From positions 215,001 to 279,000 of the forward strand of contig JALHMB010000006.1 of NCBI GenBank assembly GCA_022844275.1: DNA of 64,000 nucleotides. The letters run 5' to 3'. A model generated the notes under the pieces. It was not told where the DNA came from. It did not search any database and saw only the letters and a list, made by a program, of their open reading frames with translations. The first letter of the stretch is position 1. Each line of letters begins with the position of its first letter. Origin of the DNA: Hyphomicrobiaceae bacterium. GTDB taxonomy: Bacteria > Pseudomonadota > Alphaproteobacteria > Rhizobiales > Hyphomicrobiaceae. A program made the translations under genes and the position numbers. Of this stretch, positions 2-58,872 are shown in pieces.

Positions 2-964
2 CTCGAGCCCGTGCGCTACGCCGTTTTCGATACGCGCGCCGCGCACCGCCTAAGCGTCGAGCGCAGCCCGGCTGGCGAACTCGTCGCGTCAGCCGAGCCG
101 CTGTGGGCCAATGCGCGGCCGAGCCAGCCCCGCGACAATGCGCGACCGTCAACGGCGAGTTTGTACGCTGGCGTCTATCACGCGGCGTTCTCGCAGGGCA
201 TCGAGCCCGAAACGATCATGCAGATCCTGCGTCTGCACGCTTATGAGACCGACTTCCGCCGACGGGCGCGCCTCTCCGACGAGCTCGAGCTCTTCTTCGA
301 CGTGCGAGAGGAAGGACGGGGCGAGGAGCAGCTCGGCGAATTGCTCTACTCGGCGATCATGAGTGCCGGCGAGAGCCAACGCTTCTTCCGTTTCCGCTCG
401 TCCGACGGTGTCATCGACTTCTACGACGCCGACGGAAACAACTCGCGGAAATTTTTGATCCGTCAGCCCATTCGCGGCGACGAAGCGCGGCTGACTTCAG
501 GCTTCGGCGTGCGCTATCATCCGCTGCTGAATACGCGCAAACTGCACACCGGCGTCGACTGGGCTGCTCCAATCGGAACGCCCATTCTCGCCGCGGGCAC
601 CGGCGTCATCGAAGAGGCGGGCCTCAAAGGCCAATACGGCAACTACATCCGCATCCGCCACGCGAACGGCTACCAGACGGCCTACGCACACATGAGCCGC
701 TTCGCGCCCGGCGCCGTCGCCGGCGCCAAAGTGCGCCAGAACCAAGTCATCGGCTACTCCGGCAATTCCGGCTTTTCGACAGGCCCGCATCTGCACTACG
801 AGGTGCTCGTCAACAATCAGTTTGTGGATCCGCTTGCGATCCAGGTGCCGCGCGAGCGCCGGCTCACGGGCCGCCAGCTCGCGGAGTTCCAGAAAGAGCG
901 CGGACGCATCGAGGAGCTCCTGCGGCGCCATCCAGTGCGTGTCGAGCAGATCGCTGGACGCTAA
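2..964 (+). CDS. M23 family (LytM-type) peptidoglycan endopeptidase, 5' end cut off
   Basis: The reading frame is open from the left edge, so the gene starts outside the window; a GTG at position 11 is in frame but is probably internal. The last ~160 residues form a LytM/M23 metallopeptidase domain. Counting from the GTG, the zinc ligands are H179 and D183 (motif HTGVD) and H262 of the HLH motif, with H227 (YAHMS) and H260 as catalytic histidines. The region before it resembles the linker/OapA-like part of long M23 proteins. Such enzymes cleave peptide cross-links of peptidoglycan in the periplasm, or act as division-related activators when inactive; here all key residues are present. It converges on gpsA. 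Family is clear; substrate is not. Confidence 0.88.
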   Translation, partial: LEPVRYAVFDTRAAHRLSVERSPAGELVASAEPLWANARPSQPRDNARPSTASLYAGVYHAAFSQGIEPETIMQILRLHAYETDFRRRARLSDELELFFDVREEGRGEEQLGELLYSAIMSAGESQRFFRFRSSDGVIDFYDADGNNSRKFLIRQPIRGDEARLTSGFGVRYHPLLNTRKLHTGVDWAAPIGTPILAAGTGVIEEAGLKGQYGNYIRIRHANGYQTAYAHMSRFAPGAVAGAKVRQNQVIGYSGNSGFSTGPHLHYEVLVNNQFVDPLAIQVPRERRLTGRQLAEFQKERGRIEELLRRHPVRVEQIAGR

Positions 965-970
965 GGCAAC

Positions 971-1023
971 GGACTTGAAATTCTCCTCAGCTCGAGGCGA
1001 GGTGGGGAGTGAACTTCAAGTCC
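971..1023. terminator. Long inverted repeat between convergent genes
   Basis: GGACTTGAA (971-979) pairs perfectly with TTCAAGTCC (1015-1023), and a partial inner stem of CTCC against GGGAG follows. It lies between the converging M23 peptidase and gpsA stop codons, so a bidirectional terminator is likely. No U-tract follows on either strand, so intrinsic termination is not certain. Confidence 0.4.
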
Positions 1024-1040
1024 AAAGGAGCTTTAGCGCG

Positions 1041-24747: not shown

Positions 24748-25521
24748 TCAGGCGCCGGTGGCGCGCACGCTGCCTATCCCATCGATCGTGAAATCGAAAG
24801 TCTCGCCCGCGGCGATCGGCAGCGTCGGGATGAGGCTCCCGGTGATGACGACCTGCCCAGCGGCAAGTGGCTTGCCGCGCGACGCCGCAAGGTTCGCGAT
24901 CCACGCGAGCGCTCCCATGGGATCGTCGGTCTTGCCGCTGTGCTTGCCCGATCCCGTCGTGAGATTGCCCGCGAGGCCGTTGAGCTCGAGGCTTGCGGGC
25001 ACTTTCACCGGCGCGCCGAGAACGATGCCGGCATTCCACGCGTTGTCACAAATGAGCGTGTGTGCCTTCGAGGTCTTGTAGTCGGCATTGCGGTCCTCGA
25101 TAAGCTCGAAGGCCGGCATGACCTCGACGATAGCAGCGCGGACTTCCTCCCGCGTGTAGGGCGTGGGTCGCGGCTCAAAGGTCTCGCCGACGCGCACGGC
25201 AAGCTCACACTCCATGACGACGTGCATGTGATCGGAGAGCTTGATGGTCGCAGGCGAGGTGTGGATACGCTTGGAATAGATCACGCCGCCGCAGGGATGA
25301 TCGATGCCCATGAGCGCCTGCATGACCTTCGTCGTCGTCGCGATCTTGAGACCGCCAACCGGGCCGTAGAGAGGAATCCACAGATCGCGGAGAGCTTCCT
25401 GCGCCGCATACGCCTCGTCGATGGTCCGCGGCGCAATGTCCTCGGGCAGATTGCGGAAGGGCGCGCGCGTACGGTGTGCATCTGCGATATAGCGGGCAGC
25501 CGCGGCAGGATCGAAGGGCAT
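24748..25521 (-). CDS. 2-keto-4-pentenoate hydratase / fumarylacetoacetate hydrolase family enzyme
   Basis: 257 aa, full length for the MhpD-like group. Features include GGLKIATTTKVMQALMGID, the acidic metal site MECELAVRVGE and EVMPAFELIEDRN, and the GSLIPTLPIAAGETF motif near the end. Related enzymes hydrate 2-keto-4-pentenoate or decarboxylate 4-oxalocrotonate in aromatic catabolism. No other catechol-pathway genes are nearby, so the physiological role is open. Its start faces the composite palindromic repeat and htpG. Confidence 0.85.
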   Translation of the reverse strand: MPFDPAAAARYIADAHRTRAPFRNLPEDIAPRTIDEAYAAQEALRDLWIPLYGPVGGLKIATTTKVMQALMGIDHPCGGVIYSKRIHTSPATIKLSDHMHVVMECELAVRVGETFEPRPTPYTREEVRAAIVEVMPAFELIEDRNADYKTSKAHTLICDNAWNAGIVLGAPVKVPASLELNGLAGNLTTGSGKHSGKTDDPMGALAWIANLAASRGKPLAAGQVVITGSLIPTLPIAAGETFDFTIDGIGSVRATGA

Positions 25522-25566: not shown

Positions 25567-25642
25567 CTAGTGTGATGATCGAGAAATTCGCCAGCCCTCG
25601 CGGCACGGTATCCAGCGAATTTCTCGATCTGCATCACACTAG
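25567..25642 (+). repeat. Palindromic repeat A, copy 1 (76 bp)
   Basis: Starts CTAGTGTGATGATCGAG and continues AAATTCGC; ends GCGAATTTCTCGATC, then TGCATCACACTAG. The arms pair over about 25 bases with a 3-base bulge (GCA) in the right arm, around a ~23-base centre. A second copy in reverse orientation is at 57968-58043, with only about eight differences in 76 positions. Confidence 0.9.
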
Positions 25643-25655
25643 CTAGTTCATGATT

Positions 25656-25731
25656 CTAGTGTCCCTTTTGATTCCGAGTTCGCTCGGACACTCGCATCTA
25701 GGTTAAGCGAACTTCGGAATAGGGACACTAG
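25656..25731 (+). repeat. Palindromic repeat B, copy 1 (76 bp)
   Basis: Starts CTAGTGTCCCTTTTGATTCC and ends GCGAACTTCGGAAT, then AGGGACACTAG. The arms pair with a bulge of about four bases (TTTT) in the left arm. It shares its first seven bases (CTAGTGT) and the inner TTCGC with repeat A, so A and B look like relatives. It lies 13 bases after A, and the same A-13-B unit recurs inverted at 57877-58043. Confidence 0.9.
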
Positions 25732-25865: not shown

Positions 25866-27773
25866 ATGAGCACCGACCGCCCGTCGCCCGCGGGAGCGCG
25901 CCCCTTTCAGGCCGAGGTGTCGCGCCTGCTGCACCTCATGGTGCATTCGGTCTACACCGAAAAGGACATCTTCCTGCGTGAGCTGATCTCGAATGCGTCC
26001 GACGCTTGCGATAAGCTCCGCTATGAGGCGATTGCGCGTCCAGAGCTGATCGGCGACGACGCGCGCCTCGCGATCCGCATCGAGACGGACAAGGAAGCAG
26101 GCCGGCTCGTCATCGCCGACAACGGCATCGGCATGAACGAGAGCGAGCTCGCCGAGAATCTTGGCACGATCGCCCGCTCGGGCACGCGCGCCTTCATCGA
26201 ACGCCTCGGCAAGGACGGCGAGAACTCCGCGCTCATCGGTCAATTCGGCGTTGGCTTCTATTCGGCCTTCATGGTGGCCGATCACATCGAGGTTCTGAGC
26301 CGCAAGGCCGGCGAGGATGCGGTCTGGCTTTGGTCGTCCGACGGCGCGAACGGTTTCACGATCGCGCCCGCACCAGAAGGCGACGCGGCCAAGGTGGCGC
26401 GCGGCACGCGGATCACGCTGCATCTCAAGGATGACGCGAAGAACTTTCTCGAAGACTACGAGATCGAGCGCATTGTCAAAACCTACTCCGATCACATCCT
26501 CTTCCCCGTCGAGCTGATCGGTGCGGACGGCGCAGCAAAGCAGCTCAACTCGGCAAGTGCGCTCTGGCAGCGGTCCAAGAGCGAGGTGAAGCCGGACGAG
26601 TACACCGAGGCCTACCGCAGCATTGCCGGACAGCTCGACCAGCCGGCGCTGACCGTCCACTACAAGGCCGAAGGTCGCCAGTCCTACGCGGCGCTCCTGT
26701 TCGTGCCGACGCAGCGGCCATTCGATCTCTTCGATGTCGAGCGCAAGGGACGCGTGAAGCTTTACGTTCGTCGCGTGTTCATCACCGAGGACGCGGCACT
26801 GCTGCCGGGATATCTCCGCTTCGTCCGCGGTGTGATCGATAGCGAGGACGTGCCACTCAACATTAGCCGCGAGATGCTGCAGAACAATCCGGCCGTGGCA
26901 CAGATCCGCCGCGCCGTGACGGCCAAGGTCATAGGTGAGCTGGAGACGCTGGCGAACAAAGAGCCGAAGAATTTCATGCAGATCTGGGAAATCTTCGGGC
27001 AGGCGCTCAAAGAAGGTATCTACGAGGATTTCGAGCGCCGCGAGCAGCTCCTGAAGCTCGCGCGCTTTCGCTCTACGGTGGGCGACGACTGGCGTTCGCT
27101 CAGCGAGTATGTCGCGGACATGCGCGAAGGCCAAACGGATATCTACTATCTCGTCGGCGAAAGTCTCGATCGCCTCAAAGCGAGCCCGCAGCTCGAGGCC
27201 GCGAAAGAACGCGGCGTCGAAGTGCTGCTGCTCCACGATCCCGTGGATGCCTTCTGGACGACATCGGCACCGAAGTTCGACGGCAAGGCGCTGAAGTCGC
27301 TCTCGCAGGGCGATGTCGATCTCTCCGCGGTTCCGCTGAAAGAGAATGCGACGCCGAAGGCCGATCCGCCGAAGGATGTCGGTGATCTCATTTCCTCGCT
27401 CAAGGCGGCGCTCGGCGAGGAAGTCGACGACGTCAAGGTCTCGCAGCGGCTCGTCAGCTCGCCGGCCTGCCTCGTTGCCAATGCGCACGGCCCCGATCGC
27501 ACGCTGGAGCGAATGTTGCAGCGCCAGCAGCGTGGCCTCAACGTGAAGCCGGTGCTGGAGATCAATCCCGCTCATCCGCTGATCGCGGCCATCGACCGCG
27601 CACGCCTCGCGACCGACCTCATCGCGGTCGATGACCTCGCACATTTGCTGCTCGACCAGGCGCGCATTGTCGAAGGCGAGCTGCCGAGCGATCCCGCCCG
27701 CTTCGCCGAGCGACTGAACCGCTACCTGGTTGCCGGCCTCAATGCCCCGAACACAGAAGGCAGACCCGCATGA
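25866..27773 (+). CDS. htpG: Molecular chaperone HtpG (Hsp90)
   Basis: 635 aa cytosolic ATP-dependent chaperone. The GHKL nucleotide-binding domain shows [44 protein letters not shown] and [17 protein letters not shown]. The middle domain carries [19 protein letters not shown] and [15 protein letters not shown], and the C-terminal dimerisation region follows. TAGGAG precedes the ATG. Its stop overlaps the start of the M3 peptidase gene by four bases (ATGA), so the chaperone and a peptidase are translationally coupled. Confidence 0.97.
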
Positions 27774-57876: not shown

Positions 57877-57954
57877 CTAGTGTCCCGATTCCGAAGTTCG
57901 CAATACCTTGATGCTGGCGTCCCGAGCGAACTTCGGAATCAAAAGGGACACTAG
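57877..57954 (-). repeat. Palindromic repeat B, copy 2 (78 bp)
   Basis: Read on the minus strand it begins CTAGTGTCCCTTTTGATTCC, like copy 1, and ends GCGAACTTCGGAATC then GGGACACTAG. It is the distal half of the composite unit. Its final TAG is the fdhD stop codon, and its GGGA is placed to serve as the fdsD ribosome binding site. Confidence 0.9.
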
Positions 57955-58872
57955 GAACCTAAACTTGCCAGTGTGATTCAGATCTAGAAATTCGCTCGAT
58001 ACCGCTCCGCGAGAGCTGGCGAATTTCTCGATCATCACACTAGCCGGCTTTCCGCTTTTGTCCTGAGCCGCAACGGCCTCAGGAATACGTTCTGGATGTG
58101 TGAAAATCTCGAATCCGTCCTGGCGTGCAACGGCGGCAAGCGTGATGCCGACAGCTTCGGCCGTTTCAAGGGCGAGTTTTGTCGGTGCCGAAACCGCGAC
58201 GATGACCGGCGCGCCCGCTCTTGCCGCCTTCTGTACCATCTCGACGGATACGCGGCTCGTCAGAAGAATGAGGCCGCTACGCAGATCCGTCCCGCGGCGC
58301 CTGAGCCCGCCAATGAGCTTGTCGAGCGCGTTGTGCCGGCCGACATCCTCGGCAATGGCGACGAGACCCTGCTCGCGATTCCAGAAACCCGCCCCATGCA
58401 CGGCGCGCGTGCGCACGTTGAGTTCTTGAGCCGGCGCGAGCGAGGCCATCGCCTTCATGATATCCGCCGCAGTGAAGGTGACGTCGCTCGATACACGTGC
58501 CAGCTTGGCGGTAGCGGCCTCGAGGCTCTCGACACCGCACAACCCGCAGCCCGTCGGCCCCGTGATCTGACGGCGGCGCGTAGCAAGCTCGATACCGCGA
58601 CCTTTGGCGAGCCACATCCTGAGCTCGATCCCCTCAGCATGCTCGACGACATCCAATCCCTCGATGTCCGCGGGCTCTTTGATGATGCCCTCGCTGAGGC
58701 TGAAGCCGTATGCGAAATCCTCGAGGTTCGTGGGCGACGCCATCATCACGGCATACGTCGTCCCGTCATAAACGAGCGCCACAGGCACCTCCAACGGCAC
58801 CTCGCGCTCCATCGCGGTGGCGGCAGAAGCCGTCACCTTGATCGAGCGAACGCGGGCGGTGGCGTCGGTCAT
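57877..58872 (-). CDS. fdhD: Formate dehydrogenase accessory sulfurtransferase FdhD with a repeat-encoded C-terminus
   Basis: FdhD passes sulfur from IscS to the molybdenum cofactor before insertion into the formate dehydrogenase. The sulfur-transfer motif is TGPTGCGLCGVESLE (C109 and C112). The normal protein ends after a 'FEIFTHPERIPE' region; here 276 residues of FdhD-like sequence are followed by 54 residues (SVMIEKFASSRGAVSSEFLD and on to SGH) encoded by the composite palindromic repeat, which also supplies the TAG stop. Total 331 aa against the usual ~270-280. It lies nine bases after fdsA. The core should function; the effect of the tail is unknown. Confidence 0.93.
   Translation of the reverse strand: MTDATARVRSIKVTASAATAMEREVPLEVPVALVYDGTTYAVMMASPTNLEDFAYGFSLSEGIIKEPADIEGLDVVEHAEGIELRMWLAKGRGIELATRRRQITGPTGCGLCGVESLEAATAKLARVSSDVTFTAADIMKAMASLAPAQELNVRTRAVHGAGFWNREQGLVAIAEDVGRHNALDKLIGGLRRRGTDLRSGLILLTSRVSVEMVQKAARAGAPVIVAVSAPTKLALETAEAVGITLAAVARQDGFEIFTHPERIPEAVAAQDKSGKPASVMIEKFASSRGAVSSEFLDLNHTGKFRFLVSLLIPKFARDASIKVLRTSESGH
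57968..58043 (-). repeat. Palindromic repeat A, copy 2 (76 bp)
   Basis: On the minus strand it begins CTAGTGTGATGATCGAG, continues AAATTCGC, and ends with GAATCACACTGG. About eight positions differ from copy 1 at 25567-25642, mostly in the loop. A 13-base spacer (57955-57967), itself similar to the spacer at locus 1, separates it from repeat B copy 2. It lies within the fdhD reading frame. Confidence 0.9.

Follow-up and report, generated by a model that had tools for sequence, protein, structure and literature searches.

The paired hairpins at positions 25567-25731 of the window, the 64-kb stretch of DNA analysed here, very probably represent a non-autonomous MITE of the IS630 (Tc1/mariner-like) kind that is mobilised in trans by an IS630-family transposase. 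The unit is small, lacks a transposase gene and occurs in many copies. Its ends are similar, not identical, to those of autonomous IS630-family elements, none of which was found in the window's own genome (G000). A TA target duplication and a preference for CTAG were also seen, the former in one clean nested case and the latter at 5 of 8 empty sites, with 3 of 8 not fitting. The architecture appears unusual for an IS630-type MITE, with each end doubled into a hairpin and an IHF-site-like spacer placed between the two.

Two copies of the element in the window

Two copies in the order A-spacer-B lie in the window, copy 1 at 25567-25731 (+) and copy 2 at 57877-58043 (-). They are 165-167 bp long and consist of hairpin A (76 nt), a spacer of 13 nt and hairpin B (76-78 nt). 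Their parts, the neighbouring genes and a related single hairpin are as follows.

961..1036, +: single A-type hairpin of a sister family (CTAAAGC type; ends CTAAAGC/GCTTTAG), no adjacent partner
24748..25521, -: neighbour of copy 1, FAA_hydrolase-family protein (PF01557), listed start 45 bp from the element
25567..25642, +: hairpin A of copy 1; outer arm CTAGTGTGATGATCGAGAAATTCGC, loop, inner arm longer by 3 nt; like the upstream end of the G006 and G029 IS630 elements
25643..25655, +: spacer of copy 1, 13 nt, CTAGTTCATGATT; family consensus CAAGATTATGATT; IHF-site-like YAANNNNYTGATW
25656..25731, +: hairpin B of copy 1; inner arm with a TTTT bulge, loop, outer arm ending GGGACACTAG; like the downstream end of the G006 and G029 IS630 elements
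25866..27773, +: neighbour of copy 1, HSP90 protein (PF00183), listed start 134 bp from the element
57877..57954, -: hairpin B of copy 2
57955..57967, -: spacer of copy 2, CAAGTTTAGGTTC
57968..58043, -: hairpin A of copy 2, entered by the FdhD reading frame
58044..58872, -: neighbour of copy 2, FdhD/NarQ-family protein (PF02634); the open reading frame 57877-58872 stays open across the element

Global alignment of the two copies gives 20 differing positions and 2 gap columns over 167. The differences fall at 7 of 76 positions in A and 5 of 13 in the spacer, with 8 differences and the 2 gap columns in B. An earlier note, made from the letters alone, had described two palindromes of ~76 bp set 13 bp apart (A 25567-25642, B 25656-25731) and the whole unit repeated on the opposite strand at 57877-58043, with B close and the spacer partly conserved between copies. 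All of this is borne out; its figure of about eight differences in A was right about the similarity, the exact count being seven. A scan of the window for exact 14-bp inverted repeats with loops of 8-50 nt picks out two places, a single hairpin of each copy; the same scan of 20 first-order Markov shuffles of the window returned 1 in total.

Copy 1 is situated between the divergent starts of the FAA_hydrolase-family gene and the HSP90 gene. At copy 2, 55 codons of the FdhD frame (57877-58872) reach into the element. The genes beside both copies are ordinary, in agreement with the earlier reading.

Copy number and distribution

A search of the window's own genome (6.08 Mb, 24 contigs) scored at least 40 full-length A+B places from 81 candidates, and 44 distinct copies were obtained. 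An exact A-stem pattern occurs there at 32 places, at least one of which (C3:616069) is a member of a sister family; the reversed control gave 0. Over all sampled DNA, 208 pairs were reduced to 181 distinct copies, mostly from Hyphomicrobiaceae, with copies running off a stretch left out and no duplicates remaining. The element had been described as present twice, which is true of the window and far too low for the genome.

In a first sample of relatives, 14 of 60 genomes matched (own included): 5 of 5 in the genus, again with the own genome, 9 of 31 in the rest of the family and 0 of 24 others. Across the family, 46 of 103 genomes, from 18 of 25 genera, gave a match at an E value of 0.001, although the weakest of these matches may be sister families. 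An order-level search at 1e-6 matched 9 of 297 genomes, 4 of them outside the family and only one of those (G353) strongly. That genome, from another family of the order, contains two full-length copies with 80-82% identity at one locus (L244), which suggests transfer beyond the family of the window. In the named collection at least 103 stretches had matches, labelled Hyphomicrobium, Hyphomicrobiaceae, Hyphomonadaceae, Rhizobiales or Pseudomonadota. Neither the plasmid nor the phage record collection contained a match to the element, and a plasmid or phage origin was rejected on these grounds.

Among genomes with more than two sampled copies, the elements of G006 are the most alike, with a mean identity of 97% vs 83% in the window's own genome. 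The G006 copies (JAIEQJ loci) form a recent burst of near-identical elements, and the spacer in this species is inverted relative to the other sampled genomes. In G068, copies are arranged in a head-to-tail array that shares single CTAGs (L271, 70-496); similar tandem pairs are present in G011 and G028.

Hairpins A and B form one unit

In profile searches of the sampled stretches, A and B were paired in one constant order 188 times, and 25 matches were left unpaired. Twenty of the 25 were viewed; the other 5 (L134, L150, L154 and two in L167) lie near stretch ends. A nested element that splits one pair accounts for two of the 20, and a pair in which B is inverted in place for two more. Seven come from pairs of variant or sister-family type and four from a sister family; there are also two fragments and one match whose partner is cut. 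The remaining two are one lone A and one lone B of the main family. A later set of 35 unpaired matches stands outside this classification. Lone B hairpins could be underrepresented, since the sampling is biased towards whole elements and towards A hairpins whose stems are intact. Of the 181 copies, 165 have a spacer of exactly 13 nt. Judged by order and spacing, A-13-B is one element, as had been proposed; constant pairing at 13 bp holds for these 165 copies, and halves of the sister family occur singly.

One sampled element (L195, 2482-2646) has hairpin B inverted in place, with the bulge on the outer arm, and is predicted to be immobile.

The sister family, of the CTAAAGC type, was matched in only four of the 14 genomes (G000, G002, G003 and G004). 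It includes clean single hairpins such as that at 961-1036 of the window, so pairing is a rule of the main family and not of the whole kind. Through short direct repeats at the arm ends, these single hairpins could have arisen by deletion.

Register and coevolution of the arms

Consensus A aligns with the reverse complement of consensus B with 23 mismatches and 2 gap columns over ~78 positions. A and B can therefore be read as diverged inverted copies of one module, and the two palindromes, earlier called different, are not unrelated. Both hairpins have extra bases in the inner arm, about 10 nt from the CTAG, and the inner arm is the longer one in both hairpins of 177 of the 181 copies. In A the offset is +3 in 175 copies, +4 in 2 and +2 in 1; in B it is +4 in 130, +3 in 43 and +5 in 7. 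The exceptions are L116 and L137, whose inner A arm has the outer register, L179, whose outer A arm has the inner insertion, and L240, where B is unrecognisable. The first three look like conversion between arms.

In the 174 copies with spacers of 12-14 nt, the arms diverge from consensus by 3.0-4.4% and the loops by 21-29%. Inner arms are about equally conserved as outer arms, so recognition of the ends alone does not explain the conservation. Double changes that preserve pairing number 28 in the window's genome, where shuffles gave a mean of 2.9 and a maximum of 8, and 145 in all genomes but the burst genome (shuffled mean 11.4, maximum 20); these shuffles leave the shared ancestry among copies in place. 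By this measure the hairpin arms coevolve, which reflects either selection for hairpin DNA or correction of one arm from the other by template switching.

Correction without selection, acting as quasipalindrome repair in an ordinary MITE, would account for the arms only and is compatible with an IS630-type origin; we regard it as possible, though doubtful. It agrees with the register conversions in L116, L137 and L179 and with the balance of mismatches, G-T and A-C being nearly equal outside the burst genome (28 vs 22 in the window's genome, 82 vs 76 without the burst genome, 117 vs 84 in all). However, such correction should erase the extra inner bases, yet these are kept in nearly all copies, and the contrast between conserved arms and variable loops also speaks against it. 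The near equality of G-T and A-C outside one recent burst leaves little sign of selection at the RNA level there.

The number of mismatched arm pairs was considered as a measure of age and set aside. Its mean, of 50 pairs, is 2.11 in the window's genome, 1.97 in FPEI, 1.87 in the burst genome and 1.00 in WBUE, and perfectly paired copies number 6 of 44 in the window's genome and 0 of 31 in the burst genome. That the youngest burst does not have the most perfect arms argues against a simple clock.

Target site and gene context

At one locus (L165, 6990-7370) a complete sister-family element is nested in a main-family copy. It sits in the inner CTAG with the junction CACAC-TA-(insert)-TA-GCGAGG, so that TA is duplicated within CTAG; this is the one clean case. 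The outer four bases of the element are CTAG at 139 of 181 A ends and 158 of 181 B ends. When filled and empty orthologous sites were aligned, the flanks were joined without the element in 8 of 11 alignments, and 3 of 11 were too messy. Presence and absence at orthologous sites in the eight clear alignments points to a mobile element. By eye, the joins of five empty sites fit the target (CTCG, CTTG, CTGG, CTGC and the TA of a TAA stop), and the other three have no CTAG-like site. In the portions of the literature drawn on, ISY100 inserts at TA and duplicates it (PMC2170065), and IS630 prefers the TA in CTAG, according to the title of Tenzen and Ohtsubo 1991 as cited there (PMC2170065). The earlier statement that no target duplication is seen beyond the terminal CTAG passes over the answer, a CTAG with its inner TA duplicated being the known IS630 signature.

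Gene context was determined with a home-made gene caller, which put 161 of 166 placeable copies between genes; the analysis covers these 161 and excludes 5 copies that overlap genes and 15 at the ends of stretches. By this caller, 65 of 151 neighbouring gene ends take their stop codon from the TAG in the CTAG of the element itself, compared with 4 in the other closed frame. Between genes of the same direction, A points towards the upstream gene in 81 cases and B in 36 (p 4e-5). Near stops, A faces the stop in 68 cases and B in 25; far from stops the numbers are 30 vs 28. Non-coding CTAGs of the sampled DNA lie at stops in 60 of 258 cases. A preference of the enzyme for stop codons is not claimed from 60/258 CTAGs and 65/151 gene ends, since the denominators are unlike; the claim goes no further than an enrichment to which target and selection both contribute. 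A homolog comparison for the 65 genes that stop in the element's CTAG yielded 15 rows, including one for the same locus; 4 of the 14 others stop at the identical codon, and several are distant. These TAG stops indicate how an element can occupy gene ends with the reading frame uncut.

The closeness of so many copies to stop codons, the orientation of A towards the upstream gene and near stops, the strong hairpins and the compensatory changes would also suit a structured RNA or regulatory module (a 3' UTR element, terminator or sRNA) that is under host selection and became repeated by other means. We consider this improbable, given the little wobble preference (117 vs 84 only with the burst genome included), the presence and absence at orthologous sites and the ends held in common with insertion sequences (ISs). 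In addition, the 64-kb window contains no Rfam match at the gathering score.

Search for the mobilising enzyme

Of the 14 carriers of the first sample, 5 have the IS630-type domain PF13358; it had no match in the window's genome or in the 8 other carriers. As no IS630 transposase was found in that genome, its own copies look orphaned. Across the family, a related IS630-family transposase is present in 11 of 103 genomes. Co-occurrence with the element is weak by raw counts, with the element in 8 of 11 genomes that have the IS and 38 of 92 that do not.

Five ISs of 1.14-1.18 kb in related genomes have CTAGTG at both ends. When IS ends were compared with the hairpin arms over 25 positions, the matches for G006 were 20 (A with the upstream end), 17 (A with the downstream end), 17 (B upstream) and 22 (B downstream); for G029 they were 18, 17, 13 and 20 in the same order. 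In these two ISs the end upstream of the transposase gene appears A-like and the downstream end B-like, a preference that is clear for B and slight for A. A control set of CTAG 25-mers was discarded, as unmasked copies of the element remained in it. The asymmetry is missing in three of the five ISs compared (G004, G070 and G031), and the ends of the G004 IS resemble hairpin A of a sister family in G028. Of the 13 IS ends listed, 10 have GA at position 11, matching the outer arms in register. Folded IS ends form no long hairpins comparable to those of the MITE, which is therefore not a plain internal deletion of the IS.

The G029 transposase belongs to the IS630 family by NCBIfam NF033545 (284.9 bits, cut-off 100) and has DDE_3 and HTH domains; it found no sequence match among solved structures. 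In G006, the genome of the recent burst, two identical tandem IS630-type elements have one CTAG in common (L207, 157-2505), and both copies look interrupted near the transposase N terminus. A second IS630 group in G010 (L196, L201) has shorter transposase frames and inverted repeats starting CTAGAGC, and is perhaps related to the CTAAAGC sister family.

The RAYT-type (Y1) domain PF01797 was searched for in 18 genomes, with positive results in controls such as E. coli and Caulobacter. It was matched in three of the 18 (G007, G008 and G013) and was not found in the window's genome or, overall, in 13 of the 14 carriers. The only matching carrier, G007, has one Y1 match, whose frame has a TAG, and G013, a weak carrier in the family-wide search, has two. 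A RAYT had been put forward as a candidate mobiliser; the search disfavours it, and the transposase encoded by the matching ISs is a DDE enzyme of the IS630 family.

That the element is a REPIN or BIME, two inverted palindromes copied by a RAYT through single-stranded DNA, is accordingly very improbable. The outline is shared, with two inverted asymmetric hairpins, a bulge in each stem, a short spacer and many intergenic copies; kept arm complementarity would suit a single-stranded intermediate, and the Y1 matches of G007 and G013 would offer an enzyme. Against this stand the failure to find PF01797 in 13 of the 14 carriers, palindromes of 76-78 bp with CTAG ends in place of 20-40 bp with a GTAG or CGTC tag, insertion that duplicates TA in CTAG, and ends that resemble IS630 elements. 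That an ordinary intergenic region was simply duplicated as a segment, as the two copies in one window might suggest, is refuted for practical purposes by 44 distinct places in the window's genome, flanks that differ in 30 copies aligned, and matches in 46 of 103 family genomes.

The spacer and GANTC sites

The spacer was scored in either orientation against WATCARNNNNTTR, which we take to be the IHF consensus, using the 165 copies with a 13-nt spacer. Against this assumed consensus, 117 of the 165 copies fit at 7 or more of the 9 positions and 57 at 8 or more, and the fit is perfect in 5; G007 and G021 have perfectly fitting spacers. Flanking 13-mers (n=19668) reach at least 7 positions in 0.38% and at least 8 in 0.04%. 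Among distinct spacers, 70 of 112 reach at least 7; the copies share ancestry. With the burst genome excluded, differences amount to 15.5% at the specified IHF positions, 43.2% in the N4 and 29% in the loops. Conservation of the specified positions is thus below that of the arms and above that of the rest; the earlier view that spacer conservation is meaningful agrees with these rates. Genes for both IHF alpha and beta are present in the window's genome, above the cut-off. The region between the hairpins thus appears IHF-site-like, a putative site of IHF binding.

GANTC is about 12-fold enriched, with 2.40 per copy vs 0.20 per 167 nt of flank, and 164 of 165 copies have at least one. The four consensus sites lie in the A inner arm, the end of the spacer, the B inner arm and the B outer arm. 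A plain CcrM-site explanation of the spacer was set aside: 81 of 174 copies keep the spacer GANTC, and 152 have T at its N position, which the IHF reading fits better, and both may apply. GANTC also occurs in 7 of the 13 IS ends examined, each time at position 11 and with all four letters represented at N. Five ISs have it at their downstream end, one of these at the upstream end as well, and a sixth has it at one end; the 6 ends without it include the single visible end of the G118 IS. At this position GANTC may serve as a contact for the transposase, as a CcrM site, or in both ways.

Proposed mechanism

For the IS630-type MITE that we favour, the following course is proposed. An IS630-family transposase acting in trans would bind the outer arms of A and B, which resemble the two unlike ends of its cognate IS, and would cut beside the TA at each end. 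The whole A-spacer-B unit would then insert into the TA of a CTAG-like target, duplicating the TA. The inner arms, ~3-4 bp off register with respect to the IS ends, should be poor substrates, so that the inner bulge may have a blocking role and the unit would move whole. IHF on the 13-bp spacer could bend the DNA and bring the ends together, and GANTC near the ends would permit control by CcrM methylation. Counting against this explanation, the best matches between IS ends and arms are 18-22 of 25 and not exact; moreover, since clean single hairpins of the sister family exist, the blocking idea needs these to be deletions.

If the element arose in this way, it shows a route from the unlike ends of an IS to a pair of unlike hairpins that move jointly, a layout for which REPINs are otherwise the known example. 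If the proposed roles of the IHF-like spacer and the GANTC sites are correct, nucleoid structure and the cell cycle would both be tied to transposition. An IS630-type enzyme would also be a candidate mobiliser for two-arm intergenic repeats of Alphaproteobacteria. A bolder and rather unlikely extension is that CIR-type two-arm GANTC repeats are IS630 MITEs with movement tied to the cell cycle: IHF would bend the linker, CcrM methylation at GANTC sites close to the IS ends would gate the transposase and the arms would be re-perfected in each round. If true, the re-perfected arms would introduce a strand-folding step into the life of a DDE element.

Comparison with known systems

The literature searched, mostly titles and abstract openings, contained no description of the element. 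Two palindromes in inverted orientation around a spacer are known from REPINs and BIMEs, which are moved by RAYT-type enzymes and have a GTAG or CGTC tag. The RIB/RIP forms of E. coli bind IHF and have the IHF site between two inverted palindromes, much like the predicted arrangement here. The element differs in its hairpins of 76-78 bp and in the carriers, 13 of 14 without a detected RAYT, whereas REPIN and BIME palindromes are given as 20-40 bp in the part of the source used (PMC3733652).

With IS630 and ISY100 the element has in common insertion at TA with duplication of the TA, and the CTAG preferred by IS630; in contrast, these elements encode a transposase and the present unit has no such gene. 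Correia/NEMIS repeats of Neisseria are described, in the sections of a 2007 review drawn on here, as MITEs with TA termini and a duplicated target, the 155-bp form of which binds IHF in vitro (PMC2229807). They resemble the element in these features, the IHF site being a prediction in our case. Their IHF site is situated in a 50-bp internal stretch and not in a 13-bp spacer between hairpins, and no two-arm build is described for them in those sections.

By description only, the closest kinds appear to be RUP/IS630-Spn1 and the CIR repeats. RUP of Streptococcus pneumoniae is 107 bp long and thought to be moved by IS630-Spn1, in the same sections of the review (PMC2229807). Like the element it is a small non-coding intergenic repeat with IS630-like ends and a TA target. 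Repeats other than CIR are described there as having no arms or linker, their stem pairing the 5' end with the 3' end (PMC2229807), and RUP differs accordingly from an element with two hairpins and a spacer.

CIR (CcrM-associated intergenic repeats; Chen and Shapiro 2003, through reviews consulted in part) are found in Caulobacter and Brucella and consist of two long inverted-repeat arms with a linker, TA termini and GANTC in intergenic positions (PMC2229807, PMC10969869). They measure ~110 bp, with GANTC at or near the terminal loop, and their mobility was called unresolved in the sections used of the 2007 review (PMC2229807). The element shares the two hairpin arms and linker, the TA termini, GANTC, the intergenic location and the occurrence in Alphaproteobacteria. 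It differs in its length of 165-167 bp, in consensus GANTC sites that lie in the arms and at the spacer end, and in the link to IS630 found here. On this comparison by description, we consider the element like CIR in outline and file it as a two-hairpin IS630-type MITE rather than as a CIR.
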